A DNA stretch of 64,000 bases from Salisediminibacterium beveridgei (GTDB taxonomy: Bacteria; Bacillota; Bacilli; Bacillales; Salisediminibacteriaceae). Positions within the stretch are counted from its first letter, which is position 1, and every line of letters starts with the position of its first letter. The stretch is taken from the NCBI RefSeq assembly GCF_001721685.1, contig NZ_CP012502.1:310001-374000 (forward strand), given 5' to 3'. The translations under genes and the position numbers were made by a program. The notes under the pieces are model-generated. The model was not told where the DNA came from. It saw only the letters and a program-made list of their open reading frames with translations, and made no database searches. Below are positions 11,277 through 59,407 of this stretch, one piece after another.

Positions 11277-12197
11277 TTATTCAATGACTGATAAAAAATA
11301 ATCAACAACCTCCGGATGGTATTTGATCCCACGGAGCTGTTTGATTTCAGTCAAGGCACTTTCTTTAGAACGGGCTTTTGAATAAATGCGTTCGCTGGTC
11401 ATCGCATCATACGAATCCACCAGACCAACAATCGCGGCTTCGAGACAGATTTCATCACGTCTGAGTCCTTTAGGATACCCGCTGCCATCGTATCGTTCAT
11501 GATGCTGTTCAACGACTTCGGCTGCCAGGATAAAATGGGTAATATTCGTTTTTCTTAAGATAGTTGCTCCATAACGAGTATGTTCCTTCATGATGGTCCA
11601 TTCTTCCTCATCGAGTTTGGCAGGTTTCAGTAAAATCGATTCCGGGACTTCTGTTTTCCCGATATCGTGAAGGAGTGCGCCGAAATGAAGTTTTTGCAGT
11701 GATTCAGAGTTCAGTTCCATTTTCTCGCCGACGAGCATGGAAAGCTCTTTGATTCTAAAGCAGTGGTCTGCTGTATATCCGTCTTTTTTTTCAATTTCAA
11801 TAGCCAGCATTTCTAAATTTCTTGTGTCGCTGCTGTAATAATGAAATACGGGGTTAGAAGTAATATATAGAAATTCAGAGTCCTCGAGTGCTGTTAATAC
11901 AATGAATTCACTGACAGGCTGACCTGCGAGAAAATCACCTGCTTCAAGGAAAGACCCCTCATTTGGCCTGTGTAACTTCAATTTACCCGATAAGATATAA
12001 ACAGCTTCTAATGTATTGGGTTCCTCAGAGTCAGGGCTCATTCCCCAGCGGGCCCCTTCTTTCAGGCAATGATGAATGACTTCCGTGCCGTCGTGTGAGC
12101 TCAAAAGAGAGGTGATTGATTTTTTGGTAGCTGCGGTATCCAGTGCTTCGCCATATTTTAATTGAAGAAAAGTTTTGGATGATCTTTGAGAACTCAC
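11277..12197 (-). CDS. HD-GYP domain phosphodiesterase with N-terminal cupin-like sensor
   Basis: About 306 residues. The N-terminal third resembles a cupin/cNMP-like beta barrel (WGMSPDSEEPN, VYILSGKLKLHRPNEG, LEAGDFLAG). The C-terminal part is an HD-GYP domain with the metal motif LLHDIGKTEVP (about 170) and HHERYDGSGYPKGL (about 230). HD-GYP enzymes split cyclic di-GMP or related signals. No membrane segment is present, so it is cytoplasmic. A GTG at 12195-12197 is preferred because GGAGG sits 7 nt upstream; an in-frame TTG at 12201-12203 is too close to it. It is co-transcribed with the small exported peptide. Confidence 0.85.
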   Translation of the reverse strand: MSSQRSSKTFLQLKYGEALDTAATKKSITSLLSSHDGTEVIHHCLKEGARWGMSPDSEEPNTLEAVYILSGKLKLHRPNEGSFLEAGDFLAGQPVSEFIVLTALEDSEFLYITSNPVFHYYSSDTRNLEMLAIEIEKKDGYTADHCFRIKELSMLVGEKMELNSESLQKLHFGALLHDIGKTEVPESILLKPAKLDEEEWTIMKEHTRYGATILRKTNITHFILAAEVVEQHHERYDGSGYPKGLRRDEICLEAAIVGLVDSYDAMTSERIYSKARSKESALTEIKQLRGIKYHPEVVDYFLSVIE

Positions 12198-12349
12198 GAG
12201 CAAGCCTCCAAACTGGAAAGTGTGTTCCGTTATTCTGTTGTATTCATTATAGTCGAATCTGTTAGGTTCTGTCGAACATAAATGATAATATTCGGCAATT
12301 AAGGATAAAGGTGCAGGACGATTCTTTTTTTAGGAGGTGCCTCCTGCGG

Positions 12350-12500
12350 TTTCGAGCAACCCAAGGTAAATGTGAGCACGTCGATTGGGATGTGCACAAT
12401 TTTCAACGAATCCGGGCAAATCCAGAGAAATCCCTGCATCGTCGCGCTTAGGTGAGCATGTCCGGAGGGATGTGCACATCTTCATGCGGACCGCGCATGT
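12350..12500 (+). repeat. 20-nt periodic box array A (8 units)
   Basis: The GCA/ACA core of a degenerate 10-nt box (ATGTGAGCAC, ATCCGGGCAA and similar) recurs at 12356, 12376, 12396, 12416, 12436, 12456 and 12476, exactly 20 nt apart, with a last one at 12495. The 10 nt between boxes vary. It fills much of the 580-nt gap between the HD-GYP gene and the gamma-GT gene. The rest of that gap (12501-12778) shows nothing I can assign. See arrays B, C and D. Confidence 0.85.
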
Positions 12501-12778
12501 TGGGCGCTGTCAATTATTGTGGGTATATTTTGTAAGGAGATCCGTCATTGCGGATGAGCATAGCGGCATGACGGGGGTGAACCGCATTGTATTGCCTCAG
12601 GGGGCGAGGGATAACAGGTTTGCTTGTCATCAAGCGGGCAAGGTAGTCTCACAATTCTTTCACTCACTCGGTCTAAATGAGCAATCGCTTCGAATGAGCA
12701 GACTGTCATGTAAGGCAACGACTTTGTATGGTAAAGTTAAATCAGTCAAATGACACCAGTAGGAGGGATTGTATTCTG

Positions 12779-15379
12779 ATGAAACAGTTGAAACAGTTAT
12801 CCAGCCTTCTGTTCCTGCCCATGACCGTGGCGCTTCTCGCGACGGGGTGTTCAGATGAAGAGGTGGAAGATAAAGAACCGGATCAGGACGCGCCGGATGA
12901 TTCGGTCGTCGGCTCGGGCGGTGCGGTAGCCACAGAAGACGTCCACGCGTCGGATGCGGGGATGACCATCCTCGAGGAGGGCGGCAATGCCGTTGACGCA
13001 GCGATTGCATCTGCTGCGGCGCAAGGGGTGACACGCCCGTTTTCCGGCGGGATTGGCGGTGGGGGGATGATGATGATCTACCTGGCTGAAGAAGATCAGC
13101 ATGTCGTGATTGATCACCGCTCACAGGCGACGGAGGTGTTTGGCCCTGACTCGCTCAGACGTGAGGCGGGGGACCTGATCTATCCTGAGGAGACGAGAAT
13201 CTCGGGCAGTGCGGTCACCGCTGTGCCTGGTGCCGTCAAGGCCTGGGCGGAAGCACTTGATACATACGGAACGATGAACTTGAGCGAAGTCTTGCAGCCG
13301 GCGATTGCCATCGCCGAGGAAGGATTTCAGGTGGATGAGACGTTCGTCAGGGAACTGCGTGAGAACGCTGAACGTTTCCGGCTGTTTGAACCGACAACGG
13401 ATCTGTACCTCGGGGATGACGGTGAACTGCCGGAAGCGGAGAAGGTTTTTACCAATCCGGATTTAGGGGAGACCTACAGATTGATCGGCGAACATGGCAG
13501 CGACGTCTTTTACGAAGGCGAAATCGGGCAGGCCATCACGGAGACTGTCAACGAACCGCCGGTTGTGGCAGATCCGGACTTCGACGCGGTGAGTGAATCG
13601 TGGGAAGAGGAATACGGCATCTTGAAAGGCGCAATGACGATGGCAGATTTAGCTGCCTATAAGCCGATCACCCGTGAACCCGTGCATTCGACCTATCAGG
13701 GGTATGACATCTACGGCGCGCCGCCGTCTTCAAGCGGTGGGTTAACGATCAGCCATGCGTTGAACATCCTCGAAGGGGTTGATCTCACCAGCATGCCAAG
13801 AGAAGAAGCCTTCCATTATTATCTGGAAGCGTCGCGCCTCGCATTTGCCGACCGGCGCGCCTACATCGGTGATCCGGCAATGACGGCGATCTCTACCGAA
13901 GGCTTTCTGTCCAAGGCGTATGCCGACAAGCGCCGGACATTGATTCAAGAGGATGTGGCGATGACCGGACAGATTGGACCAGGTGACCCTGCCGGGTTCG
14001 ACGATGAGGCGGCAGAAAGCAGTCCGGCATTGGCGTATGATTTCACTGAAGATGACGGCGATAAATGGGCATTGACGGCGTTTCACCGCCTTGACCGGGG
14101 ACCGATGAACAGTCCGTTTGATGCGGAGCTTGATATCAAGGATGATACCGGACGCCTGGCGATTGCAAAGCGGAACCCGGAGCGTGGCAGTGCCTACGGC
14201 CGCGCAGCCGGCAATATGGCAGCGACAGCAAACAGTGAGCTGACGATCCGGTTCAAAACCGACAGCGTCGGGGATAATCAGCGGCTCCGTTTCTGGCTTC
14301 AGGGTGACGTGTGGAACTCAGGGTCCACCGCACCTGAGAATGGATACGGCGTCGAGGTGAACCTCGAAACAGAAGAGCTCGTGTTGCTTTTGGCTCAGGA
14401 TTCGGCGTTAAAAACGCTCGACACCATGGGCATCAAGATGGATACCGCGTGGAAAGACCTGCGGTTTCGAGTCGACGGGAATGATCTTCAAGCGAGCCTG
14501 TGGGACGTAGATGAAGCTGAACCAGGTGACTGGGCCATCGATCATACACTTGAAAGCGATGAACTGCTGGATGACCGCCGGGGCCGCTTTTTACTGAGCG
14601 GGATCAATTTCACCCAGCAAAACGATGTCACCTTTCAGATTGATCGCGTCACTGTGGAAGACCTGGGTACGTCCGGGGGCGAAGAAGTAAAAGAGAGCAG
14701 CCCATCAGAAGGGTCCCCTGTCGTCACAGACGATGCGCACAGGTTGTCAGAAGACAAAGGGGAAGGCGAATCCACGATCCATCTGTCCGTCAGTGATGAA
14801 GCTGGAAATATTGTCAGCTATACGTCGACGATCGTCTCTATCGGCGGCAACGGCATGGTCGTGCCGGAGCGGGGTTTCCTGTTAAACAATGCGCTCTATG
14901 ACCGGACGCCGTGGCAACATCCGACCCATCCGAACTATCCGCGGCCCGGGATGCGCCCGATGAGCAGCATGGCACCCACCTTGATTCTGCAAAACGGGGC
15001 ACCTGTGATGACGCTGGGGGCACCCGGGAGTGATTCGATACTGACGACGGTCCTGCAAATCGTACTCAACCGGCTGGCGTTTGATATGCCGCTTGATGAG
15101 GCGATTGCCGATCCGAGAATCAATCAGCGCAACCCATTCAGCGGTGCGGGCAGGTATGAGGCGATTTTCCATCAGGTAGATACCGGCCTCCCGGATCTGG
15201 TTGGAGCACTGGAAGCCAAGGGGCATCAGTTCAGACCGGCCACGGCCACGCAGGGTATCGGTGCCGTGACGGGGATTGAGTTCCTCCCAAACGGGAAAGT
15301 CATGCCGGCTACGGAGAAAGTGCGCCGGGGCGGCGGGCATGCGCAGGTGCAGTCGGAGGACGAGGCCGGAGATCCTTAA
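12779..15379 (+). CDS. ggt: Gamma-glutamyltranspeptidase lipoprotein with inserted domain
   Basis: 866 residues against the usual 550-600. A lipoprotein signal ends LLATGC, so it should be anchored outside the membrane. The large-subunit part (about 40-400) has GGNAVDAAIA, GGGGMMMIY and APPSSSGG-type blocks. The autoprocessing/catalytic Thr is at about residue 666 in GESTIHLSV, followed by SIGGNGM and PTLILQNGAP. Between about 415 and 632 a separate beta-rich domain (YDFTEDDGDKWAL ... FQIDRVTVEDL) is inserted in the linker just before the processing site. The enzyme splits gamma-glutamyl bonds of glutathione or polyglutamate. Start ATG 12779 with AGGAGGG at 12761-12767. Confidence 0.9.
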   Translation: MKQLKQLSSLLFLPMTVALLATGCSDEEVEDKEPDQDAPDDSVVGSGGAVATEDVHASDAGMTILEEGGNAVDAAIASAAAQGVTRPFSGGIGGGGMMMIYLAEEDQHVVIDHRSQATEVFGPDSLRREAGDLIYPEETRISGSAVTAVPGAVKAWAEALDTYGTMNLSEVLQPAIAIAEEGFQVDETFVRELRENAERFRLFEPTTDLYLGDDGELPEAEKVFTNPDLGETYRLIGEHGSDVFYEGEIGQAITETVNEPPVVADPDFDAVSESWEEEYGILKGAMTMADLAAYKPITREPVHSTYQGYDIYGAPPSSSGGLTISHALNILEGVDLTSMPREEAFHYYLEASRLAFADRRAYIGDPAMTAISTEGFLSKAYADKRRTLIQEDVAMTGQIGPGDPAGFDDEAAESSPALAYDFTEDDGDKWALTAFHRLDRGPMNSPFDAELDIKDDTGRLAIAKRNPERGSAYGRAAGNMAATANSELTIRFKTDSVGDNQRLRFWLQGDVWNSGSTAPENGYGVEVNLETEELVLLLAQDSALKTLDTMGIKMDTAWKDLRFRVDGNDLQASLWDVDEAEPGDWAIDHTLESDELLDDRRGRFLLSGINFTQQNDVTFQIDRVTVEDLGTSGGEEVKESSPSEGSPVVTDDAHRLSEDKGEGESTIHLSVSDEAGNIVSYTSTIVSIGGNGMVVPERGFLLNNALYDRTPWQHPTHPNYPRPGMRPMSSMAPTLILQNGAPVMTLGAPGSDSILTTVLQIVLNRLAFDMPLDEAIADPRINQRNPFSGAGRYEAIFHQVDTGLPDLVGALEAKGHQFRPATATQGIGAVTGIEFLPNGKVMPATEKVRRGGGHAQVQSEDEAGDP

Positions 15380-17902: not shown

Positions 17903-17930
17903 AATGATCACTCCTTTTTGTAATAATAAA

Positions 17931-17959
17931 ATAATACCACGCATAATTTCATTAATCAA
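17931..17959 (-). promoter_or_regulatory. Sigma-A promoter of the XRE-DGQHR-HNH operon
   Basis: On the minus strand, TTGATT (17954-17959) and TATTAT (17931-17936) are separated by exactly 17 nt. Transcription would start about 20 nt before the XRE ATG, and the 5' leader carries the ribosome site. Confidence 0.7.
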
Positions 17960-18102
17960 GAAATAATTTATTTATTCATGAAATTATTTTTTGTATTAGG
18001 AATAAAACATAGTTTCTAGGAGGATATGTATATGCAGATTTAACCTCATCAAAATGATGACTTCTTGGAATAAACTTGAGGTAAGGTAAAATGGACTTGG
18101 TA

Positions 18103-18784
18103 GAAAGAATGATACTTGGTGGGGAAAATACATGTTTGGTTTTATCGGAGGTTTCTCCCAGCAGGAGAGAAGACGCTTTTTCAAAACAAGCTGGTACAGA
18201 AGCGGTAGGACAAGCGGAAGGTCGCTGGATGAATTGCTAAACGGGGGGGGGGGGGGGGGGGATGTTTCTGCACTCGTACCGATAAACTTGAGATCAAGCT
18301 GAATGAACTCAACCACAAGAATGATCTGGATGTGATTTATATCAAAACGTTCAGGGTTTCGAATACTGTGAATGTACTGGAATAAAAAGTGCGGATCTGT
18401 TCAATCATTACACTGTAGGATGCCATCACTTGAAAAGAACACACATGTTCAGTGTTTTAGTACGACAGCTGTCAGTGAAAGCGTGAAGTGAATGTGTCTT
18501 CCTTGAATACAAATGACAAGGTTCCCTCGATAACCTATGCAAAAGTGGACGTAAGGGCATTGCTTCAAAGCGAGCGGCAGGAAGATCTCTGTCACGTTAA
18601 CCTGCATGCTATGAAACAGCTTCATATCAAGACCTTCGTCTTTATCTTTACAAAGCTGATAAGTAAAGAAATATTTGAAGGATTCATTTGGGGAGACGGC
18701 GGGTACGAACTATCATATAAATAAGTAAAAAACGTTTTAAAAATCGATGACCATCTTGATCAAGAAGGACTGCTGGTAAACTGA
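18103..18784 (+). pseudogene. Decayed second copy of the G3E/CobW GTPase gene
   Basis: The stretch aligns by eye with the intact G3E gene at 10069-10986. The start region, TTATCGG-GGTTTCTC P-loop region, GATAAACTTGAGATCAAGCTGAATGA-like core, the GATGTGATTTATAT stretch and the AGCGAGCGGCAGG ... CATATCAAGAC parts all recur in order. It has frameshifts and a deletion of roughly 70-100 nt before the CxCC site. A run of 19 Gs stands at 18243-18261 exactly where the GCVCC codons should be. Only short open frames survive (for example 18488-18724), so no functional product is expected. Confidence 0.85.
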
Positions 18785-43096: not shown

Positions 43097-43684
43097 TTAT
43101 CTGCCGGAGATGAGAATCAGTACAGCCATGTTTTCATCTTCATCATCGTAGCTCGAAATGGTTAAGGACATGGCCTCGTCGCTGTCCTCCATGCCGCCTT
43201 GCACACTGAGATTGTGATCGGCCTGCATTTCCTGAACGTTATCGTACCCTTGACTCTGTATATAATCTTTGTAAAGCTCAAACACATCGTTCGCATCTTC
43301 TTCGAACACGAACTGCACGGTGTGCATCACTTCGTCATTATCGGCCACCCGCTGCGTTCCGAAGATTTCAGCCGTATCCGGAAACGGGATGTCATCCGGG
43401 AACTCCTCATGCAGTTCGGATGAGCCACCTGCGCCGAAGGAGAAGGTTTCTTCGCCGTCGTCACCGGTTCCGGATACCGAGATGGACCCATCATCGTCCT
43501 GTTCGAACCCGATGGACTGCTCTGAGCCATCCTTATCCGTGACGGTAATGGCATCTTCCGAATCGCCACTGAACAAGCCGAAGAAATCGATGCTTACTTC
43601 ACCATCCTCGTCATCAGAAAATGTAAATGAGCCACACCCGGTTAACAGCAGAGTACTTAAGAATAAAAACATCAGCCATTTCAT
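43097..43684 (-). CDS. Acidic lipoprotein of unknown function
   Basis: 195 residues with a lipobox LLTGCG and a mature part rich in Asp, Glu, Gly and Ser (DDEDGEVSID, GTGDDGEETFSFGAGGSS). The C-terminal 90 residues look folded (DDIPFPDTAEIFGTQRV, MHTVQFVFEEDANDVFELYKDYIQSQGYDNV) and recall small substrate-free lipoproteins with an alternating alpha/beta pattern. No family is recognised. GAGGGAGTGAG precedes the ATG. The 22-nt site at 43825-43846 about 140 nt upstream ties it to the STAND/LuxR gene. Confidence 0.75.
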   Translation of the reverse strand: MKWLMFLFLSTLLLTGCGSFTFSDDEDGEVSIDFFGLFSGDSEDAITVTDKDGSEQSIGFEQDDDGSISVSGTGDDGEETFSFGAGGSSELHEEFPDDIPFPDTAEIFGTQRVADNDEVMHTVQFVFEEDANDVFELYKDYIQSQGYDNVQEMQADHNLSVQGGMEDSDEAMSLTISSYDDEDENMAVLILISGR

Positions 43685-43846: not shown

Positions 43847-43876
43847 GAGGAGAAAGGCCAAAGTGGATGGCGTGAG

Positions 43877-43950
43877 ATCCGCGCAAGTCGCTCCGGATGT
43901 TAGCAAGTCATGGATTATCCGAGCACCCCCAAATTGGGATTCGGCAACGG
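43877..43950 (+). repeat. 20-nt periodic box array D (4 units)
   Basis: Boxes ATCCGCGCAA, ATGTTAGCAA, ATCCGAGCAC and ATTCGGCAA have their GCA core at 43883, 43903, 43923 and 43944. The first three steps are exactly 20 nt, the last 21. It is the shortest of the four arrays and lies in the intergenic gap between the lipoprotein and XRE genes. Confidence 0.8.
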
Positions 43951-44060: not shown

Positions 44061-44285
44061 ATGAACGAGCATGGCGAAATGACAAATCAACTGCCTGTAC
44101 TGAGAGCAAAGCACGGGTACTCGCAAAAAGATGTGGCCGAGAAAGTGGGCGTCAGCCGTCAGACAATCGCTTCATTGGAAAAAAACAAGTACAACCCATC
44201 GCTGAAGCTGGCATTTGAACTGGCCCTGTTGTTTGAAGTGGATCTGCAGGAAGTTTTTCAATATCAAATGAAGGAGGAATCGTAA
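44061..44285 (+). CDS. Small XRE-family transcription regulator
   Basis: 74 residues, essentially only a helix-turn-helix domain: LRAKHGYSQKDVAEKVGVSRQTIASLEKNKYNPSLKLAFELA and LFEVDLQEVFQY, as in small YgzD/MutR-type repressors. AAGAAGGGGG precedes the ATG. Its stop is directly followed by the ATG of a two-to-three-helix membrane protein, so the two are translated together. This gene pair (XRE plus small membrane protein) is common in Firmicutes; the signal is unknown. Confidence 0.88.
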   Translation: MNEHGEMTNQLPVLRAKHGYSQKDVAEKVGVSRQTIASLEKNKYNPSLKLAFELALLFEVDLQEVFQYQMKEES

Positions 44286-49923: not shown

Positions 49924-49931
49924 GGTGACGG

Positions 49932-50123
49932 ATCCGTCCATGTCGGGTCCGATCCGAGCAACTGCCGGGTGATGTCAGCAAGCCCCGCTGGATGTGAGCA
50001 ACATCGCAGGAATCCGCGCACGTCGGTAAATGTGTGAGCACGTCAACGGGGATGTGAGCAATTTCTCGTCGATCCGCACATGTCGTGCAGCAGCCGCGCA
50101 ACTTCCGGATCGATCCGCGCACA
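49932..50123 (+). repeat. 20-nt periodic box array B (9-10 units), upstream of NERD gene
   Basis: Boxes such as ATCCGAGCAA, ATGTCAGCAA, ATGTGAGCAA and ATCCGCGCAC have their GCA core at 49958, 49978, 49998, 50018, 50038, 50058, 50078 (as ACA), 50098 and 50119; a weaker one stands at 49938. All steps are 20 nt but the last (21). The nine or ten bases between are different each time. The array ends about 105 nt before the -10 element of the NERD gene. Confidence 0.88.
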
Positions 50124-50275
50124 ACGGAAAACGAACATATGTACTCATGTAACCCCCCGGACAAGAACAGAACTTGTCCATTTTCAGAACGAACAGTCAA
50201 ACCGCTCACCTGCAGCTCATGATGGCTTATAATCAGAACAAACGATCTGATAAATCAGCCGAAAGCAGGTGCCCC

Positions 50276-51250
50276 ATGATTGTAAAACCCCGAAATCAGC
50301 CGCTTGATATCCATATCATCAAAGCCTTACAGCGGCGACTGCCGCATGCTTTGTCCCAGGAGCCTTTTCTGAAAGAGCAGCTTGCTCAATTTCTGGCCGG
50401 GTTCACTGGTGAAAAAGAGCTCGATTATGTTTTGGAAGGCTTGTCCTTCGACTTCCCTGACAGCCGGATCATCCAGGATTTGCGGTTGGCCGTCGGGGCA
50501 AATCATGTACAGATCGATACGTTGGCATTGACCCGAAAAGGGGTATTTCTCCTGGAAGTGAAGCATCTGTCAGGCGTTGTCCGTCTCGACACGGTCAATT
50601 GCCAGATGATCCAGCTGAAAGACGGTCAATCCCGGACGATGAAAGATCCTTTCGGTCAGATGTCGACAGCCGGGCGTAAATTCCGTAACTGGTTCACAGC
50701 GAACCGGATAGCATCGCCGCCTGTGTTTCAGCTGCTCGTCTTCACCAATGACCACATGGAGCTGGATGCAGCATCGGCAACGGGTTTTGTCAGGAGATGG
50801 GACGTGATCGACGCCATGCTCCATCAGTCGCATGGGCAACCGGACGTCATGGATGCGGCAGAAATAAAAGAGCTGGGCCGTCTGCTTGTGAAACATCATC
50901 GTCCGCAGCATCCTCATTATCAATTCGGGAAATATCAATCCTATCATGCAAAAGTGAATCCGGGCGTATATTGTCCGCGGTGCGGCGAATATATCCTGCA
51001 TAAGCGGGCGACGGGCTGGTACTGCGGCGATTGCGCTAAAACCCGGCAGCTGGCTGCGACATCCGCATTGACCGATTTTGCGTTGACGACTGCACCGTTT
51101 ATCAGCTGCCGGGAAGCAAAGGCGTTTCTTCAGGAACGAGACCGGCACATCATCTACCGCACGCTTGAAAAAACCGGGCTGCCCCGGACTAAAAACAATG
51201 CCCGGGTTATTCACTATGACCTCCGGCCGCTGTATCTGAATCTGACCTGA
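50276..51250 (+). CDS. NERD-domain (nuclease-related) protein with zinc ribbon
   Basis: 324 residues. The NERD domain (about 40-160) carries the PD-(D/E)xK-type residues: Glu in GEKELDYVLEGL (about 45), Asp in VQIDTLALTRKG (about 81) and ExK in FLLEVKHLSG (about 95). Near 231-252 is a zinc ribbon, CPRCGEYIL ... WYCGDCAK. A C-terminal 70-residue helical part ends the chain (ISCREAKAFLQERD, RTKNNARVIHYDLRP). Nuclease activity is plausible but untested in this family. A TATAAT at 50228-50233 makes the ATG at 50276 the natural start. It is flanked on both sides by the 20-nt box arrays. Confidence 0.88.
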   Translation: MIVKPRNQPLDIHIIKALQRRLPHALSQEPFLKEQLAQFLAGFTGEKELDYVLEGLSFDFPDSRIIQDLRLAVGANHVQIDTLALTRKGVFLLEVKHLSGVVRLDTVNCQMIQLKDGQSRTMKDPFGQMSTAGRKFRNWFTANRIASPPVFQLLVFTNDHMELDAASATGFVRRWDVIDAMLHQSHGQPDVMDAAEIKELGRLLVKHHRPQHPHYQFGKYQSYHAKVNPGVYCPRCGEYILHKRATGWYCGDCAKTRQLAATSALTDFALTTAPFISCREAKAFLQERDRHIIYRTLEKTGLPRTKNNARVIHYDLRPLYLNLT

Positions 51251-51254
51251 TCGG

Positions 51255-51474
51255 ATCCGCGCAACCAGGCTGATGTGTGAGCAACTCCCGCCGGATCCGC
51301 GCAACCAGGCTGATGTGTGAGCAACTCCCGCCGGATCCGCGCATGTCCGCCAGGATCCGAGCAACCGACCGACGATGTCAGCAAGTGCCGTTCAATGTGA
51401 GCACCATTCGGAAAATCTCAGCACATCCGGAGAAATCCGCGCAACTTCCTAAAAATCCGAGCGCGTCTTACATC
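51255..51474 (+). repeat. 20-nt periodic box array C (11 units), downstream of NERD gene
   Basis: GCA cores at 51261, 51281, 51301, 51321, 51341, 51361, 51381, 51401, 51421, 51441 and 51461 (as GCG) fall at exactly 20-nt steps. Units 1-2 and 3-4 are identical 40-nt copies; the rest share only the 10-nt box (ATCCGCGCAA / ATGTGAGCAA / ATCTCAGCAC) with variable spacers. It starts directly after the NERD stop codon and ends before the terminator of the convergent Mo-enzyme gene. Confidence 0.9.
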
Positions 51475-51494: not shown

Positions 51495-51532
51495 AACCAT
51501 GCGCCTGCAGCTGCTCAGCGGGGCGCATGGTT
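51495..51532. terminator. Terminator hairpin overlapping the end of the Mo-enzyme gene
   Basis: AACCATGCGCC (51495-51505) pairs with GGCGCATGGTT (51522-51532). The stop codon (51515-51517) of the minus-strand gene lies in the loop region, so the last codons are part of the stem. Confidence 0.7.
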
Positions 51533-53569
51533 TTGCTTGGGCTTAATGTTGACGAAACTGTCATAATAAGCGATGCTTTTGGATCCGGAAACGTGTTCCC
51601 CCATATCTGAATCCTTGACGCTGACTAGCTGATTCACTGCCTCATCAGTCGACGTGGCGCTGCCTTGATAAATGAGGGCAACGCTAGGGTGCACAAGACT
51701 TGTCACCTTGGCTTTCATGGTCAGTGAGGCGTTCTCATTGAAAACACGGACCAGTTCACCGTCAGAAATTTCCCTTGCCGCTGCAGCTTCAGCATGAATA
51801 TGAACAGCCGTCGCACGTTCCGGAATCGTACGGCTACCTTTAAACTGAGAATTCAATCCCCGCGAATCATGGGTCGTGAAAAGTTGCAACGAGTCAGGGT
51901 CTGTCCGAACAACCTGCTGTTTATGAATCGGAAGGGCGGGGAGGCCATTGTTTTGTGCCCGATCCGAATAAAATTCAAATTTTCCGGACGGCGTTAAGTA
52001 ATCATGGTTCTTCCAGCTGATCAGGGCGCTCTCCGGGTAACGGATTTGCCCGACAGCTTCGTGGACATCGGAAAACCCGAATTGCCGACGGACGTTGTCG
52101 TTCCATTGCCGATTCAAGTATTCACGCTTCGTCAGATCAGTCGGAAAGGCGGAAGGGGAATGAAAGCGATGGTCGATCCGGCGAGCGAGTTCTTTCATGA
52201 TCGTATAATCGGATTTGCTCTCGTGATAGGGTTCAATCGCCTGTTCATTATATGCAAATCCCCGGTGCCAGTAACTTGTGGCAATGTCCTCTTCTTCAAA
52301 AAAACTGGTGACGGGGAGCACCAGATTTGACCATTTCGCTGTTTCGGTCATGAACAAATCTGCCGTGACAACGAAGGGGATGTGTTTCAAATGCTCTCGG
52401 ATTTGACCGGGTTGCGGATCCTGGATTAACGGATTCCGGCAGCTGATCCACAGGCTTTCGAGCGGCGGATCGAGAACGGTTCCTCCGAGGTCGATCCAGT
52501 GTGTGAGCGGCAGGATGCGATTGTTTTTTTCCAAATGTTCTTTGAAGAAGGCGGTCTGATTTTCGAAGATCCACGTATCTGCATGCGCGTAATGAACGCC
52601 GGAGCCGGGTTTTCCGATCAAGCCTTGAACCGCACCTAATGCGTTGACGGTCCGAACCATTTGTCCGCCGTTAGTATGTCGCTGAAAACCGAGGCCGATC
52701 CAGTGAAAGATCTTTGAAGAAGAAGTCAGGAGTGTTTTCATGAAAGAGACCGCTTCTTCTTGCAGGCCGGTTTGCTGAAGTAGAATTCCGTGATCGATGC
52801 CTTTGAGTTCGTTTTTAAACGCATCGAATCCATGACTGTGGCGGTTCAAATAGACTTCGTCATGCAGATCTTGATCGATCAGATAAGATGTCAACGCATT
52901 AGCGAATATGCCATCTGTTCCAGGATTGATCTGCAGATAGAAGTCTGCCAGTTCGGCGGTCTTTGTCAGAACCGGATCGATCACGACAACCAGTGCACCA
53001 TTTTTCCTTGCGTTCTCTAAAAAGCGGATGCTGTGAATCGAAGTGACTGCAGGATTGGCACCCCAAATTACAATCAGTTCTGCTTCTTCCATCTGTTCAG
53101 GATCGGAAGAGCATCCGATACCGAAATCGTAATATGCAGCATCAAATCCCGCTGCGGCACAAGGAGAGCCAACGATCCGCGTCGTGGGCCCCATGCTTGA
53201 GAAAAACTCTTCAGGAGCATAGTGGCCAGCGGATAAGTCGCCGGTGTATTTGTAGAGGCCGACAGGAAGTAATGAACCGTATTGTTGATCGATGGCGAGC
53301 CAGTTGTCAACAATCATGTCATACGCCGATTCCCAGGAAATGCGTTCAAACCGGCCACTCCCTTTGTTTTTTTGATACATCGGGTATTTCAGTCGGTCTT
53401 TATGGTAGACATGATCCACATAGGACAGTCCTTTGGCACAAATGCGCCCATTGGTATACGGGTTTTCGGGATCACCGGTCACTTTCTGCAACTGGCCATT
53501 TTCCACATAGGAAATCATACTGCAGGTACTGAAGCAGTTTCTTGGACAGACGTGCCGTTTCAGCTGCAT
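51515..53569 (-). CDS. Cytoplasmic DMSO-reductase-family molybdopterin oxidoreductase
   Basis: 684 residues without signal or Tat motif. It starts MQLKRHVCPRNCFSTCSM, with the 4Fe-4S ligands CPRNCFSTC plus GRICAKG near 45, followed by DRLKYPM. The Mo-pterin fold has GSPCAAAGFDAAYYDFG, LIVIWGANPAVTS and the C-terminal molydopterin-dinucleotide domain (LFTTHDSRGLNSQF, ELVRVFNENASL). The absent export signal and the neighbouring soluble ferredoxin subunit point to a cytoplasmic reductase or hydroxylase. The substrate cannot be told from sequence. AAGGTGGGA precedes the ATG. It is divergent from the ferredoxin gene, sharing a 136-nt promoter region. Confidence 0.9.
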   Translation of the reverse strand: MQLKRHVCPRNCFSTCSMISYVENGQLQKVTGDPENPYTNGRICAKGLSYVDHVYHKDRLKYPMYQKNKGSGRFERISWESAYDMIVDNWLAIDQQYGSLLPVGLYKYTGDLSAGHYAPEEFFSSMGPTTRIVGSPCAAAGFDAAYYDFGIGCSSDPEQMEEAELIVIWGANPAVTSIHSIRFLENARKNGALVVVIDPVLTKTAELADFYLQINPGTDGIFANALTSYLIDQDLHDEVYLNRHSHGFDAFKNELKGIDHGILLQQTGLQEEAVSFMKTLLTSSSKIFHWIGLGFQRHTNGGQMVRTVNALGAVQGLIGKPGSGVHYAHADTWIFENQTAFFKEHLEKNNRILPLTHWIDLGGTVLDPPLESLWISCRNPLIQDPQPGQIREHLKHIPFVVTADLFMTETAKWSNLVLPVTSFFEEEDIATSYWHRGFAYNEQAIEPYHESKSDYTIMKELARRIDHRFHSPSAFPTDLTKREYLNRQWNDNVRRQFGFSDVHEAVGQIRYPESALISWKNHDYLTPSGKFEFYSDRAQNNGLPALPIHKQQVVRTDPDSLQLFTTHDSRGLNSQFKGSRTIPERATAVHIHAEAAAAREISDGELVRVFNENASLTMKAKVTSLVHPSVALIYQGSATSTDEAVNQLVSVKDSDMGEHVSGSKSIAYYDSFVNIKPKQNHAPR

Positions 53570-53705
53570 GACAATCCCACCTTTCGAATGTTGTCACTGT
53601 ATTGTAATGAAAATCAACGGTCACAGCTTTTCTTCTAGTATATAATAACAATATCAGGAAAAGATCGCGTTCACACAATTGTCAGTGATAAAGGAGGCGT
53701 TTGCA

Positions 53706-54269
53706 GTGGAAAGGTATCATTTTATCATTCACGCAGAGCGCTGTATTGAATGTTACTCCTGCAGTGCGGCCTGTTATCAGGAGCACTGCTTAACTCATGG
53801 AGATCAACCGAGAAGGACAATTCAACAGCGAAGCGGCAACAAGGATCAACCAGTCTATTTGTCGATGTCTTGTAACCATTGTCAGAATCCGGTTTGTGTC
53901 ACGATTTGTCCAAACAACAATTATACGAAGCGTCGGGATGGCATCGTGACTCATGATGATACCTTCTGTGAAGGTTGTAAATTATGTGTGGAGGCCTGCC
54001 CGTTCGGTGCGCCGCAGTTGAATCTCCACACGGAAAAGGTAGACAAATGTGATTTTTGCCACGAGCGTCTGAGTGAGGGTCTGGCGCCAGTCTGTGTGGG
54101 GAATTGCCCTACGGATGCATTGAATTTCGCGAAATTACCTGAACACCAGGAGGTGACAGAGAGTTATACTGGCAATCATATCCCGATCTCACGATTCACT
54201 TCTCCGGCGATCGTCATCCGGAAACAAAGGGCGATCAAACAACACTTTCTGTCAGGTGGTTTATCATGA
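53706..54269 (+). CDS. Ferredoxin-type electron-transfer subunit (4Fe-4S)
   Basis: 187 residues with four cysteine groups for four 4Fe-4S clusters: AERCIECYSCSAACYQEHC, CNHCQNPVCVTICP, CEGCKLCVEACPFGAP and CDFCHERLSEGLAPVCVGNCP. This is the DmsB/PhsB-type subunit plan. It is most likely the partner of the divergent Mo enzyme. The GTG at 53706 is the start because AAAGGAGG lies at 53690-53697; an in-frame TTG at 53679 precedes that site. A -10 TATAAT is at 53641-53646. The stop overlaps the regulator's ATG by 4 bases. Confidence 0.9.
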   Translation: MERYHFIIHAERCIECYSCSAACYQEHCLTHGDQPRRTIQQRSGNKDQPVYLSMSCNHCQNPVCVTICPNNNYTKRRDGIVTHDDTFCEGCKLCVEACPFGAPQLNLHTEKVDKCDFCHERLSEGLAPVCVGNCPTDALNFAKLPEHQEVTESYTGNHIPISRFTSPAIVIRKQRAIKQHFLSGGLS

Positions 54270-55861
54270 AAACAATACAGGATCTGCTTTTATCATTCCC
54301 GTTTAAACATGTTCATCCGGTCACACCAGTGGGCACGGATATCATCGGATTCGAAGAAATCTCATCAAAGCCGTTTGAATCAGAATCTTCGGCGTCCATA
54401 CTTGTTTATCTGCCGTACATCAACGAAGCGCGGGAGCGTCTGACAGAGGACGACGTTTTGCAAATCATGCAGTTGCCTCAAGTAGTCGGAATCCTGCTTT
54501 TTCATCCGCGTGAATTACCAATAAAAGAGCAGCTATCCGGGATTTATGCCCTTTTTGAAGTGCCGGTTATTCATCTGAGCTATCCCTTGAAAGAGATGAC
54601 TGCAAATAACAAAGCATTATCAACCTATCAGCTGATTCAGGATACCCATAACACCACAATGAAAGAACTCTTCGGCCGATCATTGGCTGTGCAAAAAGCG
54701 ATTGCGCAACCGGTAACGGTTGTCGACCAAAATTTCAAAACCGTATCAGAGAAGGTGGAATCTGAAGCGACATCGGATTGGGTGCAATTTCTGATTCACT
54801 CGAGGAGCAAGTGGCTGCAGCAGTTTTATTTTCGACCTGAACGGTTCGTGGATGAAGCGATGAATCAATCGATTCCGCTTACCTGTTATCCGGTCTACGC
54901 GCATGAAGAGATCCGCTATTATGTGATCACACCGGTGACCGAGGTGACCTGGTTTCACGATCTGCTTGCGTACTTTGCCATGTTATTGTCGTTGGTGAGT
55001 CAGCAGGAAGAGAAGATGAATGAGTTGCACCTGACATTCAAGAACCATTTTCTTCACGACCTTTTATACAATAACTTCAAATCTGAACAGGCGCTGTTGG
55101 ACCAGGCTGCAACTTGGGGCTGGGATCTTTCTGATCCACACCACTTGGCGGTGATCAGGGTTTCAACAGACGACAGCCAGCGGCACCAGCTGGATGAAGG
55201 CTGGCGAAAAGAACTGTTTGAGCGGCTGTTGAAACGCTTCAGACAGGATCATTCAGCTGGTCTGATTGAGGTTTTTCAAGATGACATTGTATTCATTTTA
55301 AGATCGGACTGTTCAATAGAAGAGGCATACCCAAGCGACCGGCTTAGGGCCTATCTCCAGGAAATGATCACCCGCTATTCGGGGAAAATGCCTCAGGTGA
55401 CGATGAAAGCAGGTATCGGCAAGTGTTATCCGAATACGAAGGAGCTGAACAAGAGCTATCAGGAAGCCTTGATGGCTTTGAAACTTGGGAACGAATGGTC
55501 CCGTGAAAAGCAGGTGTTTCATATTGAGGATCTCGGTGTGCTGCGGCTTTTGTTTTATCTGAATCAGGATCATCTTGTAGAATTCAGTTCGTCGTACCTG
55601 AAACCACTGATAGATACTGATCGGCAGCATCAAACCGATTATCTGGAAACGTTGAAGCAGTGGATTATTCATGACACAAATGTTCAGGAAACAGCTGGAG
55701 CGATGCATTTCCATCCGAACACGCTCCGTAAACGGCTGCAAAAAATTAACAAGCTCCTTGGTGTAGACATCTATAACCATGAGGACTTCGTTAACATCAG
55801 CATTGCGGTTAAGATACACGCGATTGATTTTTTTCAGACGAACGTCAAAGATTTGTCATAA
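54266..55861 (+). CDS. PucR/CdaR-type transcription regulator
   Basis: 531 residues. The N-terminal region (about 1-150) is a sensor of the PucR type with no clear motif. A middle GGDEF-like degenerate domain follows (HHLAVIRVSTDD, VTMKAGIGKCYPNTKELNKSYQEALMALKLG near 360-400). The C-terminal HTH_30 is VQETAGAMHFHPNTLRKRLQKINKLLGVDI and on (about 470-505). It overlaps the ferredoxin gene by ATGA and should control this locus in response to its substrate. PucR relatives often sense purines or organic acids, so the adjoining Mo enzyme may act on such a compound; this is inference. A terminator follows. Confidence 0.85.
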   Translation: MKTIQDLLLSFPFKHVHPVTPVGTDIIGFEEISSKPFESESSASILVYLPYINEARERLTEDDVLQIMQLPQVVGILLFHPRELPIKEQLSGIYALFEVPVIHLSYPLKEMTANNKALSTYQLIQDTHNTTMKELFGRSLAVQKAIAQPVTVVDQNFKTVSEKVESEATSDWVQFLIHSRSKWLQQFYFRPERFVDEAMNQSIPLTCYPVYAHEEIRYYVITPVTEVTWFHDLLAYFAMLLSLVSQQEEKMNELHLTFKNHFLHDLLYNNFKSEQALLDQAATWGWDLSDPHHLAVIRVSTDDSQRHQLDEGWRKELFERLLKRFRQDHSAGLIEVFQDDIVFILRSDCSIEEAYPSDRLRAYLQEMITRYSGKMPQVTMKAGIGKCYPNTKELNKSYQEALMALKLGNEWSREKQVFHIEDLGVLRLLFYLNQDHLVEFSSSYLKPLIDTDRQHQTDYLETLKQWIIHDTNVQETAGAMHFHPNTLRKRLQKINKLLGVDIYNHEDFVNISIAVKIHAIDFFQTNVKDLS

Positions 55862-55872
55862 TGCCATCTTGT

Positions 55873-55907
55873 AACAGCCTACTCACGAATGAGGAGGCTG
55901 TTTTTTT
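55873..55907 (+). terminator. Terminator after the PucR-type gene
   Basis: AACAGCCTACT-type arm (from 55873) pairs with AGGCTGTT (to 55902), followed by seven Ts. Confidence 0.85.
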
Positions 55908-56104
55908 ATGTACACTTCACATTTCAGACAAGAATTCTCCTGAAATTGGATGGAACGGTGGAATCCATCACACTTTATTTCTGGTAATTCTGTTCAAACG
56001 AACATCTTATAACAATCCCTGAACGAGTACACTATACGTAAGTTCACTTTTTCACATGAGAGGTTGTACCTGCGTATACAAAAATCAGGGGAAGGAGGGA
56101 TACG

Positions 56105-56785
56105 ATGACACAGGCAACAGATACAGACGTCAAGCCATTGATGGAAGTCCGGATGAATTATTATGACATATTAAGACGCTTGTTCAGGCAAGAACCGGAT
56201 CAACAGCTGCTGAATGATTTAGCTGAACTTCTTCTAAATGAACTGCCGTTTGAAGAAGAGGATCCAAAGCTTGAAGAAGGCAGACTGCTGATGCAAGAGG
56301 CATTGTCAGTCGAAGGCATTTTCGATCGGCTTCATTGGGATTATACACGCATGTTTATCGGCCCATACCGTTTACCGGCACCGATTTGGGAATCAGCCTA
56401 CACAAACAAGGATGGGCTTTTGTTTCAAAACGAAACAAGGGAAGTCCGCCTGCACTATTTGAAATACAGTTTTCTGCCTGAGCAGTACCAGAAAGAGGCA
56501 GATGATCACCTTGGGCTCGAACTGGATTTTATGTACCGGTTGAGTTGCATGACCCGGGATGCATGTGAAAAAGAGGACTTGCTCCAGCTTATGGAGTTAC
56601 TGACAGATCAGCAGTCGTTTTTGAGCAGTCATCTGAGAAACTGGCTGCCGGCATTTATTCAGAATGTGTCAGCATCTGCGGATACAACATTTTACCGCGG
56701 GGCTGTGAAAATCCTCGATGCAGTGACTTCACTGGATCAGGCAGCGTTAGAGGAGTTAAAAAACTATGTTTGGAATGATGAATGA
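56105..56785 (+). CDS. TorD/DmsD-family chaperone for the molybdoenzyme
   Basis: 226 residues, all helical. The family motif is visible as WDYTRMFIGPYRLPAPIWESAY and GLELDFMYRLSCM (ExxxxFGL/ELDFM type). TorD-like chaperones hold the catalytic subunit of Tat-exported DMSO-reductase-family enzymes until the Mo cofactor is inserted. It is the first gene of a cluster with catalytic, iron-sulfur and membrane subunits, 18 nt before the catalytic gene. GAAGGAGGGA precedes the ATG. Confidence 0.9.
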   Translation: MTQATDTDVKPLMEVRMNYYDILRRLFRQEPDQQLLNDLAELLLNELPFEEEDPKLEEGRLLMQEALSVEGIFDRLHWDYTRMFIGPYRLPAPIWESAYTNKDGLLFQNETREVRLHYLKYSFLPEQYQKEADDHLGLELDFMYRLSCMTRDACEKEDLLQLMELLTDQQSFLSSHLRNWLPAFIQNVSASADTTFYRGAVKILDAVTSLDQAALEELKNYVWNDE

Positions 56786-56803
56786 TCTTCGGAGGTGATT
56801 GAA

Positions 56804-59407
56804 ATGGCAAGTCTGGTAAAAAAAGCACTGGATAAAAAATTCAGTCGAAAAGCATTTATTGGCTGGTCTGCAGCAGTAACCGCAACCGCAGCAGTCCCTG
56901 CTTATGGTCTCAAGAAAATCGATTCGCGAGTGGCTGCGGAGAAGCTTGAGGAAGAAGGGCGCTGGGTGTCGGCCTCCTGTTGGCATAACTGCGGCGGACG
57001 CTGTCTGAATAAAGGGTTTGTTGTGGATGGAATTGTGACGAAGCAAAAGACGGATGATACACATGAAGATACGCCTGACTATCCACAGCAGCGCGGCTGT
57101 GCGCGCGGGCGCTCTCAGCGTCACCAGGTGTTCGGCGTGGATCGTCTCAAGTATCCGATGAGGCGAAAGCACTGGGAGCCAGGCGGTGGCAATAAGGATT
57201 TGCGCGGACGCGATGAGTGGGTGAGGCTCGACTGGGATGAGGCCCTCGATCTCGTGGCAGATGAGCTCAAACGTGTAAAAGAAAACTACGGAAACAAATC
57301 GATTATCGGCGCGAGCCGGTTAATAAATCATTACGGCGGTGCACTTGTTCGATGGGGATCTTCTTCCTCTGGTGCTTGGGGGAAACCGCAACAGCACATG
57401 GCAGCGAATCTCTCCTGGGGAGGCAGTGACCGGCTTGATTGGCGAAATGCCAAACTGATTGTCATGTGGGGTTCGAACCCGGCGTGGAGTAACGGCGGTA
57501 ACCCGCAGTATAACCTGCTTCAGGCAAAGAAAGCGGGCGCGAAATTCATCTTCGTGGATCCGTTTATCAACCCGTCGATCAAATCGTTGGATGCAGAATT
57601 TATTCCTTGCCGTCCTGGAACCGATGCCGCATTGCTCCTTGCGCTCGCTCACTACATGATTGAAAACGATCTGCAAGATCAGGACTTCCTGGACCGTTGT
57701 ACAGTTGGTTTCGATCGCGATCATATGCCGGAAGGGGCTGATCCGGACGAAAATTTCAAGGATTATGTTCTGGGGACCCATGACGGTGTTCCAAAGACGC
57801 CGGAATGGGCGTCGGAAATTTGCGGTACGCCACCGGAAAAAATTCGGATGTTCGCTCAGGAAATCGGTACGACAAAACCGATGATCTTCCAATCGTCTTT
57901 TGCCCCGGCAAGGACATATCGTGGCCAGCAGTTTTGTCAGGCGTTCCTTACAGTCGGCTGGATGACCGGAAACGTGGGTAAGCCGGGTGCCGGTGTGTTT
58001 ACGCTGAACTATGCGCGAAACCAGAGTTACGGTGGGAAAACCCTCGTGATGCCGGGCGGACGTGGCCTCGAAAATCCGGAAAACCCGCTGTTCCCAGGTG
58101 TGACGTTTGGTGCCTATGACGGCTACCGTTTTGCTGCGCCAACGCGAACCGATTTCCACGGCATGGCATATACGGAAACCTACGATGCCATATTGAATGG
58201 AGAATACACGGCGACGGTGCGGGGGAAAGTCCCTTGTGATATCCGGATGATCTGGAAAGTGCGTAACGGAAGCGGCGATAACTTCCTGAACCAGTCATCG
58301 GATATCCCGAAAGGTATCAAAGCGTTCAGAAAACTCGATTCGATCATCACCAATGACATCGTCCTTTCCACGATTTCAAAGTATGCGGATATCGTTTTAC
58401 CCGCAACCACGGAATGGGAAAAAGAAGGACGGATCAATACTGGAAATCCTGAAGCGATCTTTATCGCCAATAAGGTCACTGAACCTTTGTTTGAAGCTCG
58501 ATCAGAAGAGTGGATGGAAATTGAACTGGGCAAGCGCCTTGGAATTGATGAAGAGACGTTATATCCGATCAGTGAGAAACAGCAATTTTTCAACAGCCTC
58601 GCCGGAGCCCAAGTGATTCAGGACAACGGTGAAGACTATGAGCCGCTTGTGTCCATTACGCAAGAGGACATCGATCAGTGGGGTGTTGAAGGAGAGGCAC
58701 AAAGTGGCCGGATCGCTCTTGATGAACTGTTGGAAAAAGGGTCGTATCAGGTACAACGTTCACCGGATGATCAACTGGGTGACATAAAAGGCAAGACCTA
58801 CGTGGATAACCCGGAAGAAAATCCATTGGATACAGAATCCGGAAAACTCGAAATTCATTGCCAGATCCTCGCGGATGAGATTGAAGCCTACGGATTTACC
58901 ACATTGGCGCCGATCGCTAAATATGAAGCACCGGTTGAAGGCTATGAAGATACATTCGAAGATTGGGAGAGTAAGAAAAAAGGTGAATTTCCATTCCAGC
59001 TCGTCACAATTCACTACCCTAGACGGAGTCACTCGGTCTTTGATAATGTGCCACAGCTCCGTGAAGCGTTCCCGCAGGAATTCGTGATGAATAAACGTGA
59101 CGCGGATGAGCGGGGATTAAAAGACGGCGAAACGGTTCTCATCCGAAGTCGCCACGGTAAAGTGCTCCGACATTTATTTACAACGGAAACCATGATGCCA
59201 GGGGTTGTCAGTCTTGGTGAAGGGGCCTGGGTTGATATTGATGAAGAAACCGGGATTGACCACGCAGGTGCGACGAACATGCTGAACGGGTCCCATTTGA
59301 GTGGTCAGGGTGAAGAGCCTTGGAACACGTGTAATGTAACTGTGGAAAAATACGATGGTAAACCGTTAAAGTCCGATGAGCACTGGGATCAACGGGTGAT
59401 ATTCTAA
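56804..59407 (+). CDS. Exported DmsA-like molybdopterin oxidoreductase, catalytic subunit
   Basis: 867 residues. The N-terminus has KFSRKAFIGWSAAVTATAAVP, a Tat-like signal in which the second Arg is Lys (RK). A 4Fe-4S motif CWHNCGGRC ... GCARGRSQRHQVF (about 58-105) matches DmsA-type enzymes. Cofactor motifs are LIVMWGSNPAWSNGG, FVDPFINPS, CRPGTDAALLLAL, DIVLPATTEWEKEG and a C-terminal dinucleotide-binding part (VTIHYPRRSHSVFDN). I cannot fix the Mo ligand: the residue aligned with DmsA Ser176 is ambiguous. It would be a terminal reductase facing outside. The substrate (DMSO, TMAO, selenium or sulfur compounds) is unknown. ATG at 56804 has GGAGGTGA upstream. Confidence 0.92.
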   Translation: MASLVKKALDKKFSRKAFIGWSAAVTATAAVPAYGLKKIDSRVAAEKLEEEGRWVSASCWHNCGGRCLNKGFVVDGIVTKQKTDDTHEDTPDYPQQRGCARGRSQRHQVFGVDRLKYPMRRKHWEPGGGNKDLRGRDEWVRLDWDEALDLVADELKRVKENYGNKSIIGASRLINHYGGALVRWGSSSSGAWGKPQQHMAANLSWGGSDRLDWRNAKLIVMWGSNPAWSNGGNPQYNLLQAKKAGAKFIFVDPFINPSIKSLDAEFIPCRPGTDAALLLALAHYMIENDLQDQDFLDRCTVGFDRDHMPEGADPDENFKDYVLGTHDGVPKTPEWASEICGTPPEKIRMFAQEIGTTKPMIFQSSFAPARTYRGQQFCQAFLTVGWMTGNVGKPGAGVFTLNYARNQSYGGKTLVMPGGRGLENPENPLFPGVTFGAYDGYRFAAPTRTDFHGMAYTETYDAILNGEYTATVRGKVPCDIRMIWKVRNGSGDNFLNQSSDIPKGIKAFRKLDSIITNDIVLSTISKYADIVLPATTEWEKEGRINTGNPEAIFIANKVTEPLFEARSEEWMEIELGKRLGIDEETLYPISEKQQFFNSLAGAQVIQDNGEDYEPLVSITQEDIDQWGVEGEAQSGRIALDELLEKGSYQVQRSPDDQLGDIKGKTYVDNPEENPLDTESGKLEIHCQILADEIEAYGFTTLAPIAKYEAPVEGYEDTFEDWESKKKGEFPFQLVTIHYPRRSHSVFDNVPQLREAFPQEFVMNKRDADERGLKDGETVLIRSRHGKVLRHLFTTETMMPGVVSLGEGAWVDIDEETGIDHAGATNMLNGSHLSGQGEEPWNTCNVTVEKYDGKPLKSDEHWDQRVIF

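Follow-up and report, generated by a model that had tools for sequence, protein, structure and literature searches.

Arrays of a 20-nt periodic box beside a NERD-domain gene in Salisediminibacterium beveridgei and other Bacillales: a candidate nuclease-and-repeat partnership

The 20-bp repeats of pSK41 parC are an example of iteron arrays and partition sites, and type III toxin-antitoxin loci (ToxIN type) have a repeat array next to a nuclease gene, with a structured repeat RNA upstream of the toxin gene. In the RAYT/REPIN system, as set out in the available text of PMC3116915, distinct single-copy nuclease genes have their own repeat type both adjacent and dispersed, with several such pairs per genome and tandem clusters. 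RAYTs are relatives of the IS200 (HUH, Y1) transposases, and REPs are palindromic and mostly found in inverted pairs (same source, available part). NERD domains were named in 2004 (reference in PMC9040797); the available part of that paper describes SmdA as a membrane protein with a NERD domain that is missing several of the most conserved NERD residues, and states that, to its authors' knowledge, the role of NERD in bacteria had never been studied. A CRISPR survey, in the part available, places NERD among putative CRISPR auxiliary genes (PMC10910872). In aimed literature searches, mostly outside subscription journals, NERD-linked arrays were not found to be described. What is reported here looks like an undescribed nuclease-and-repeat partnership in many Bacillus relatives.

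The window is the whole stretch of S. beveridgei DNA that was analysed, 64,000 nt in length. It contains the following features.

49931..50130, plus strand: array B, 9-10 units of 20 nt with a final step of 21, located 5' of the NERD gene
50276..51250, plus strand: NERD (predicted nuclease) gene, 324 aa, PF08378 E 2.2e-14
51254..51473, plus strand: array C, 11 units of 20 nt, in direct orientation with respect to array B
12349..12508, plus strand: array A, about 8 units, box as in B and C, about 38 kb from the NERD gene
43876..43935, plus strand: array D, 3 clear units, box as in B and C

The preliminary description had the NERD gene immediately flanked by arrays of 9-10 and 11 units, in agreement with the coordinates. 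Array B, which ends before the NERD gene, starts 8 nt past the preceding ORF's stop codon; array C starts 4 nt past the NERD stop codon. At lags 20 and 40, self-identity was 0.48 and 0.41 for array B and 0.47 and 0.63 for array C; the remaining lags between 8 and 45 gave 0.13-0.34 in B and 0.17-0.33 in C. Array C contains a perfect 40-nt duplication. Lag scans and shuffles upheld the 20-nt period, with the small correction that the last step of array B is 21 nt and not 20 (box at 50113). The cores are mostly GCA as described, but the core at 50078 is ACA and the last core of array C (51461) is GCG. The box recurs, and its conservation extends past the 10 nt originally reported: 50 units gave the consensus [G/A]AT(CCG/GTG)(A/C)GCAA(C/G)TC, the remainder of the 20-nt unit being unlike sequence. 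On the plus strand of the window, 17 strict boxes were counted against a mean of 1.97 in 100 dinucleotide shuffles, and 5 of them form one run with a step of exactly 20 nt; no shuffle had a run longer than 1. The array observation around the window NERD gene is thus confirmed.

The direct neighbours of the unit formed by array B, the NERD gene and array C are an ORF without Pfam match and a molybdopterin oxidoreductase gene. By eye, a ferredoxin-like gene lies between two molybdopterin-oxidoreductase-like genes at 51515-59407, with a Pfam match for 51515-53569 only. Elsewhere in the window, an AT-rich repeat with a 20-nt period, ATAATTTAATTAATCAAGAA, which differs from the array box, is found at 17915-18033, and positions 18243-18261 consist of 19 consecutive G.

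A three-box pattern with up to 3 mismatches matched 35 places in the 3.58-Mb genome, all inside six arrays, and the reversed pattern gave 0 matches in the same genome. In addition to arrays B and C, these are array A, between the divergent ORFs 11277-12203 (minus) and 12728-15379 (plus), array D, between ORFs 43097-43684 (minus) and 44061-44285 (plus), and two further arrays of the same box beyond the window, at 2.42 and 3.33 Mb. With 4 of the 6 lying elsewhere, confinement of the arrays to the surroundings of NERD is ruled out. In the 3.3-kb loci around this genome's two remaining NERD genes, no segment was periodic at any lag from 13 to 30 (threshold 0.55). By eye, a molybdopterin-oxidoreductase-like ORF and a regulator-like ORF lie 1-4 kb from the 2.42-Mb array (L033 6280-9541).

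The order was represented by 397 genomes from 135 genera; by the tool's tally, 49 of these genomes, spread over 25 genera, contained five GMGCA cores at 20-nt steps (2 mismatches or fewer). The reversed pattern, used as the control, gave mostly zero rows, with a few genomes (e.g. G222 and G290) scoring above the real pattern, and some matches of the scan itself (L041, L042) resemble other repeats. The parts of the unit outside the core vary by species: G136 has GAGCACAAATCC and G110 has GCGCAAAAAA, for instance. These order-wide matches, together with the scans of NERD loci described below, rule out that the arrays are a curiosity of the window alone.

Forty loci with NERD genes of about 330 aa, including about 6 kb on each side where the contig allowed, were scanned at lags 13-30 with no box assumed; they were hand-picked from about 150 matches listed, in 30 genomes selected on the presence or absence of GMGCA arrays. 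Within 500 nt of the NERD gene, lag 20 was detected in 10 loci and lag 21 in 20, making 29 distinct loci, and no locus passed at lags 13-19 or 22-30. At 0.5-1 kb the numbers were 2 for lag 20 and 6 for lag 21, and at 3.5-6 kb they were 0 and 3, with one locus each at lags 18 and 22. Arrays were present in 11 of the 15 loci that had been inspected previously and in 18 of the 25 fresh ones. With a lower threshold, a 20/21 array was found within 1.5 kb in 33 of the 40, a 34th showing lag 19 alone. Two individual loci can be mentioned here: L105 is a shorter or divergent member of the NERD family with no 20/21 array, and L124 has a weak lag-19 segment only.

A named sample, consisting of the best 80 of 146 loci, covered Bacillus, Cytobacillus, Peribacillus, Neobacillus, Fictibacillus, Metabacillus, and others. 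Within 500 nt, it showed lag 20 in 12 loci and lag 21 in 32, a total of 42 of these best 80 of 146, and nothing at other lags; without the four loci overlapping other sets, 38 of 76 had an array. One locus, L200, was positive at every lag 2-4 kb out, for which a run of 115 N is the likely cause. The window's own taxonomic family contributed 29 further loci, 17 with a 20/21 array, and single loci passed at lags 15, 22, 25, and 30. At the strict threshold, 11 of the 40 loci and 38 of the 80 in the named sample (best 80 of 146) were without an array, and the branch of the NERD family with proteins of about 305 aa had no 20/21 array in 5 of 5 loci, all in G015 (L391-L395).

The preliminary description regarded the NERD gene and the arrays as one system and expected the arrays to be enriched near NERD genes, to keep their step in relatives, and to be absent where NERD is absent. 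Clustering within 500 nt at lags 20 and 21 alone, in two samples of relatives, supports one system. Enrichment was observed in 29 of 40 loci and in 42 of 80 (best 80 of 146), but is incomplete within the window genome, where 4 of 6 arrays lie away from NERD; the step is kept at 20 or 21 nt.

As to the third expectation, distant NERD genes, in which the profile match stops before the winged-helix tail, had no 20/21 array in any of 24 loci. One locus of this control set passed at lag 25, and among the order/class loci of the same scan one passed at lag 24 and two at lag 30. The 13 best-scoring NERD genes of other types from the same 30-genome set gave 0 of 13, the highest lag-20/21 score being 0.50. 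NERD in general as the array partner is therefore unsupported. Genome G002, which belongs to the same genus as the window, has no member of the NERD family at E 1e-15, and 400 kb of it contained no 20/21 array at threshold 0.60; one lag-21 segment reached 0.55, and lags 18 and 24 passed in one locus. These results agree with absence of the arrays where the family is absent. In an equal length of G015, where the family has eleven matches, eight lag-21 segments were counted, and a NERD gene lies between two of these. G015 also holds a separate kind of array with a period of 26/52 nt, not a multiple of three (L361 3055-3420 and L367 15437-16558). The 700 nt following the orthologue of the ORF that precedes array B contained 1 GMGCA core in G002 and 0 in G001, which is not a clean empty site because the following genes differ too.

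Paralogues within one genome carry different boxes. G000, G015, G102, G110, G136, and G167 each have one or more boxes that dispersed arrays share with a NERD-linked array, so that 6 of the 9 genomes in which most of the NERD loci were seen yielded an owner NERD for one or more boxes. No owner was found in G060, G373, and G191 (8 of 9, 9 of 11, and 2 of 3 NERD loci covered), nor in G108, G158, G237, G256, G282, and G319 (0 of 6; one or two NERD loci compared in each), and other boxes of G015 stayed without a matching NERD-linked array; the lack of a matching-box NERD in several genomes is partly due to only some NERD loci having been fetched. In 16 pairs of orthologues (at least 70% identity) the mean box similarity was 0.84, compared with 0.43-0.52 in the other identity bins, and the period was shared in 16 of 16. 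Box similarity correlated with protein similarity (Mantel r 0.19, 0 of 300 permutations). It also correlated with similarity in the domain that lies C-terminal to NERD (partial r 0.15, 0 of 300; reverse 0.08, 11 of 300). Such agreement is due in part to the joint descent of a gene and its adjacent array. Linked inheritance alone would give orthologues common boxes.

The window protein scored 54.3 bits against Pfam PF08378 (gathering cut-off 22.1). Its parts, in order, are N-terminal helices, a PD-(D/E)xK core, a CxxC...CxxC zinc ribbon (233-253), and a predicted winged helix (260-315). The core residues E46, D81, E94, and K96 were invariant in an alignment of 50 family sequences; in a separate set of 41, E46, D81, and K96 were invariant and E94 was replaced by D in some (e.g. 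L111, L113, and L125). In the predicted model, the C-terminal tail resembles MarR/ArsR regulators, the Can2 and MarR rows coming from the VIA second look; the predicted make-up of the protein is a PD-(D/E)xK nuclease combined with a MarR-like winged helix. Foldseek with this model gave no match at E of 0.001 or less, and a sequence search of solved structures gave weak zinc-ribbon matches only (best E 0.27). A protein search with the window protein returned itself and one partial relative. Pfam searches of five family proteins found NERD and no Y1 transposase.

For the spacing, 83 arrays were used (of 142 loci, 87 reached the required score, and 4 of these were removed because their protein was a repeat). 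Among successive box distances of up to 70 nt, 770 of 847 were 20 or 21 and 47 of 847 were 40-42; these arrays were found through lag 20/21, and the box-free lag scans are therefore the unbiased evidence of spacing. Steps of 20 and 21 nt were mixed in 23 of 83 loci, which fits helical phasing; the window was counted as 20-only in this tally, though the last step of array B is 21 by eye. Since about 21 bp make two turns of B-DNA, such spacing would place the boxes on one side and favours a protein on DNA over an RNA. When the same box was present on both flanks, the orientation was direct in 16 of 83 loci and inverted in 1 of 83.

Comparison of related genomes showed that the arrays called in G167 had a counterpart at the matching place in G108 in 3 of 6 cases, and that 2 of 4 arrays had one between G136 C5 and G282 C67. 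Because of these matching places, movement of the arrays, if any, is slow. At one place, G167 has the order array-NERD-array and G108 has a single array and no family gene, the sole NERD-family match of G108 in its 200 kb being near 100 kb. Units 1 and 2 of this G108 array are closer to the first array of G167 (18 and 20 of 20 versus 16 and 15), and units 3-6 and the flank are closer to the second, the difference for units 3 and 4 being a single base. This chimera-like array looks like the expected trace of recombination between direct-repeat arrays, through gene loss or integration. Clean insertion of lone arrays was rejected, no clean empty site being found in the G167/G108 and G136/G282 comparisons, which gave shared placements, differences in gene content whose edge coincides with an array or lies close to one, and the one chimera-like array. 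In G167:C1, near 204120-204420 and 213300-213600, GAGCA arrays are flanked by hairpin-like GGGACGAGGGACCTGTCCC-type repeats, and a block of about 300 nt with the array and these repeats is duplicated about 9 kb apart; the 300-nt copy ran into the flanking hairpin-like repeats, and the borders of the duplication are therefore not array borders.

We consider it probable, on balance, that the NERD gene and the arrays are a two-part system, in which a sequence-specific DNA nuclease is paired with iteron arrays as its cognate sites. In the proposed mechanism, the C-terminal winged helix, together with the zinc ribbon, would recognise the box; the 20/21-bp spacing, two helical turns, would line several copies of the protein along one face of the DNA; the PD-(D/E)xK domain would nick or cut at or near the arrays; and repair or recombination between direct-repeat arrays would maintain, amplify, and occasionally disperse them. 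If each paralogue owns one box, several independent nuclease-box pairs are possible per genome. Recognition is suggested by association, specificity, and fold; we infer physical binding, and likewise the half that leads from cutting to nuclease-driven amplification and dispersal. Four other explanations were ranked below by falling likelihood: a regulator, a defence nuclease with self-marking, passive repeats, and an RNA role.

A NERD-winged-helix protein could be a transcription factor for its own gene and for the genes beside the dispersed arrays, its nuclease fold being secondary. The nearest upstream arrays mostly stop about 10-140 nt before the start codon, and the MarR/ArsR-like tail of the predicted model is compatible with such a role. 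The placement of the arrays speaks against it: with simple ORF calls, an array edge was within 30 nt of a stop codon in 13 of 36 cases and of a start codon in 2 of 36, in a neighbour set whose regions were partly chosen around NERD genes. Moreover, in the 40 loci at the lower threshold, arrays were upstream of the NERD gene in 26 and downstream in 19, with both in 12 and downstream only in 7, and the catalytic residues are conserved. We regard a regulator as rather unlikely.

Defence, in which the nuclease would attack incoming DNA and the chromosomal arrays would hold or tame it, draws on the presence of NERD domains in defence systems (PMC10952713, available part) and on a weak similarity to PglW and MAD6, which is far under the NCBIfam cut-offs. 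The PADLOC matches were marginal, the neighbours in the window are the Pfam-less ORF and the molybdopterin oxidoreductase gene, and one family protein had no relative in plasmid and phage records at 1e-5, a result that bears on the idea indirectly. The idea appears improbable to us.

Still less probable is that slippage-born arrays gather beside NERD genes for unrelated reasons and are not read by the protein. Tandem duplications do occur, in array C and beside other NERD genes, several of which have array and linker amplified in tandem at about 197-300 nt per copy. Passive repeats would nevertheless have to keep a period of 20/21 despite unlike spacers, to be missing beside other NERD types and, at 0.60, from 400 kb of the family-less congener, and to have a box that tracks the C-terminal domain. 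Finally, a repeat RNA transcribed from the array that would guide or inhibit the nuclease, as the layout of type III toxin-antitoxin loci might suggest, is very improbable, since folding of 166 array strands gave no consistent structure (mean z -0.41, 12.7% below -2 and 4.8% above 2), and the unlike spacers, the mixing of 20 and 21, and the two-sided and distant arrays suit DNA better. RNA structure as the function of the arrays thus has no consistent signal in these 166 strands.

Returning to the nuclease with cognate arrays, a wider form of it is conceivable, which we put forward tentatively as something short of an even chance. The Bacillales would harbour an unrecognised nuclease-iteron class, with up to about 11 family genes per genome forming several orthogonal pairs of a winged-helix NERD protein and a private 20-21-bp box; the proteins would assemble on one face of the DNA, targeted cutting would copy and amplify their own arrays, and the pairs would diversify with the recognition domain. 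NERD is still without a clear molecular role in bacteria, and one Bacillales family of it now gains a concrete, bench-testable candidate DNA partner. Paralogues with different boxes are natural specificity variants and provide built-in controls. If true, the partnership would also account for a class of dispersed intergenic repeats for which no description was found in the literature searched, and, should binding and cutting occur as proposed, these sequence-specific PD-(D/E)xK nucleases, which in nature would recognise many different boxes, may serve as tools.

Compared with known systems, the array-linked family has the NERD domain in common with SmdA, and differs from it in having a zinc ribbon, a predicted winged helix, and arrays. 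As a guess, NERD-linked arrays could have fed the NERD signal of the CRISPR survey. Type III toxin-antitoxin loci are similar in having a repeat array adjoining a nuclease gene; unlike them, the NERD-linked arrays have no consistent RNA fold, are two-sided and distant, and show DNA-phase spacing. Iteron arrays and partition sites resemble the NERD-linked arrays in their tandem boxes with a spacing near two helical turns, which could plausibly support ordered protein assembly as a scaffold. The NERD-linked arrays are different from such sites in that they are chromosomal, occur at many loci, and lie beside a predicted nuclease gene with a paralogue-specific box. With RAYT/REPIN the partnership shares a predicted nuclease gene with a private repeat type clustered nearby, dispersed copies, independent pairs, and tandem clusters; in 6 of 9 genomes an owner gene was indeed found whose own repeat type also occurs in dispersed copies. 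The NERD family combines PD-(D/E)xK with a predicted winged helix and has no Y1 (HUH) match in five proteins, and its repeats, unlike REPs, are direct 20-21-nt iterons without consistent folding. Because both the type of nuclease and the form of repeat differ, the NERD-array system is not a member of RAYT/REPIN; if true, it would be a second, differently built case of the plan of a nuclease with its private repeat.
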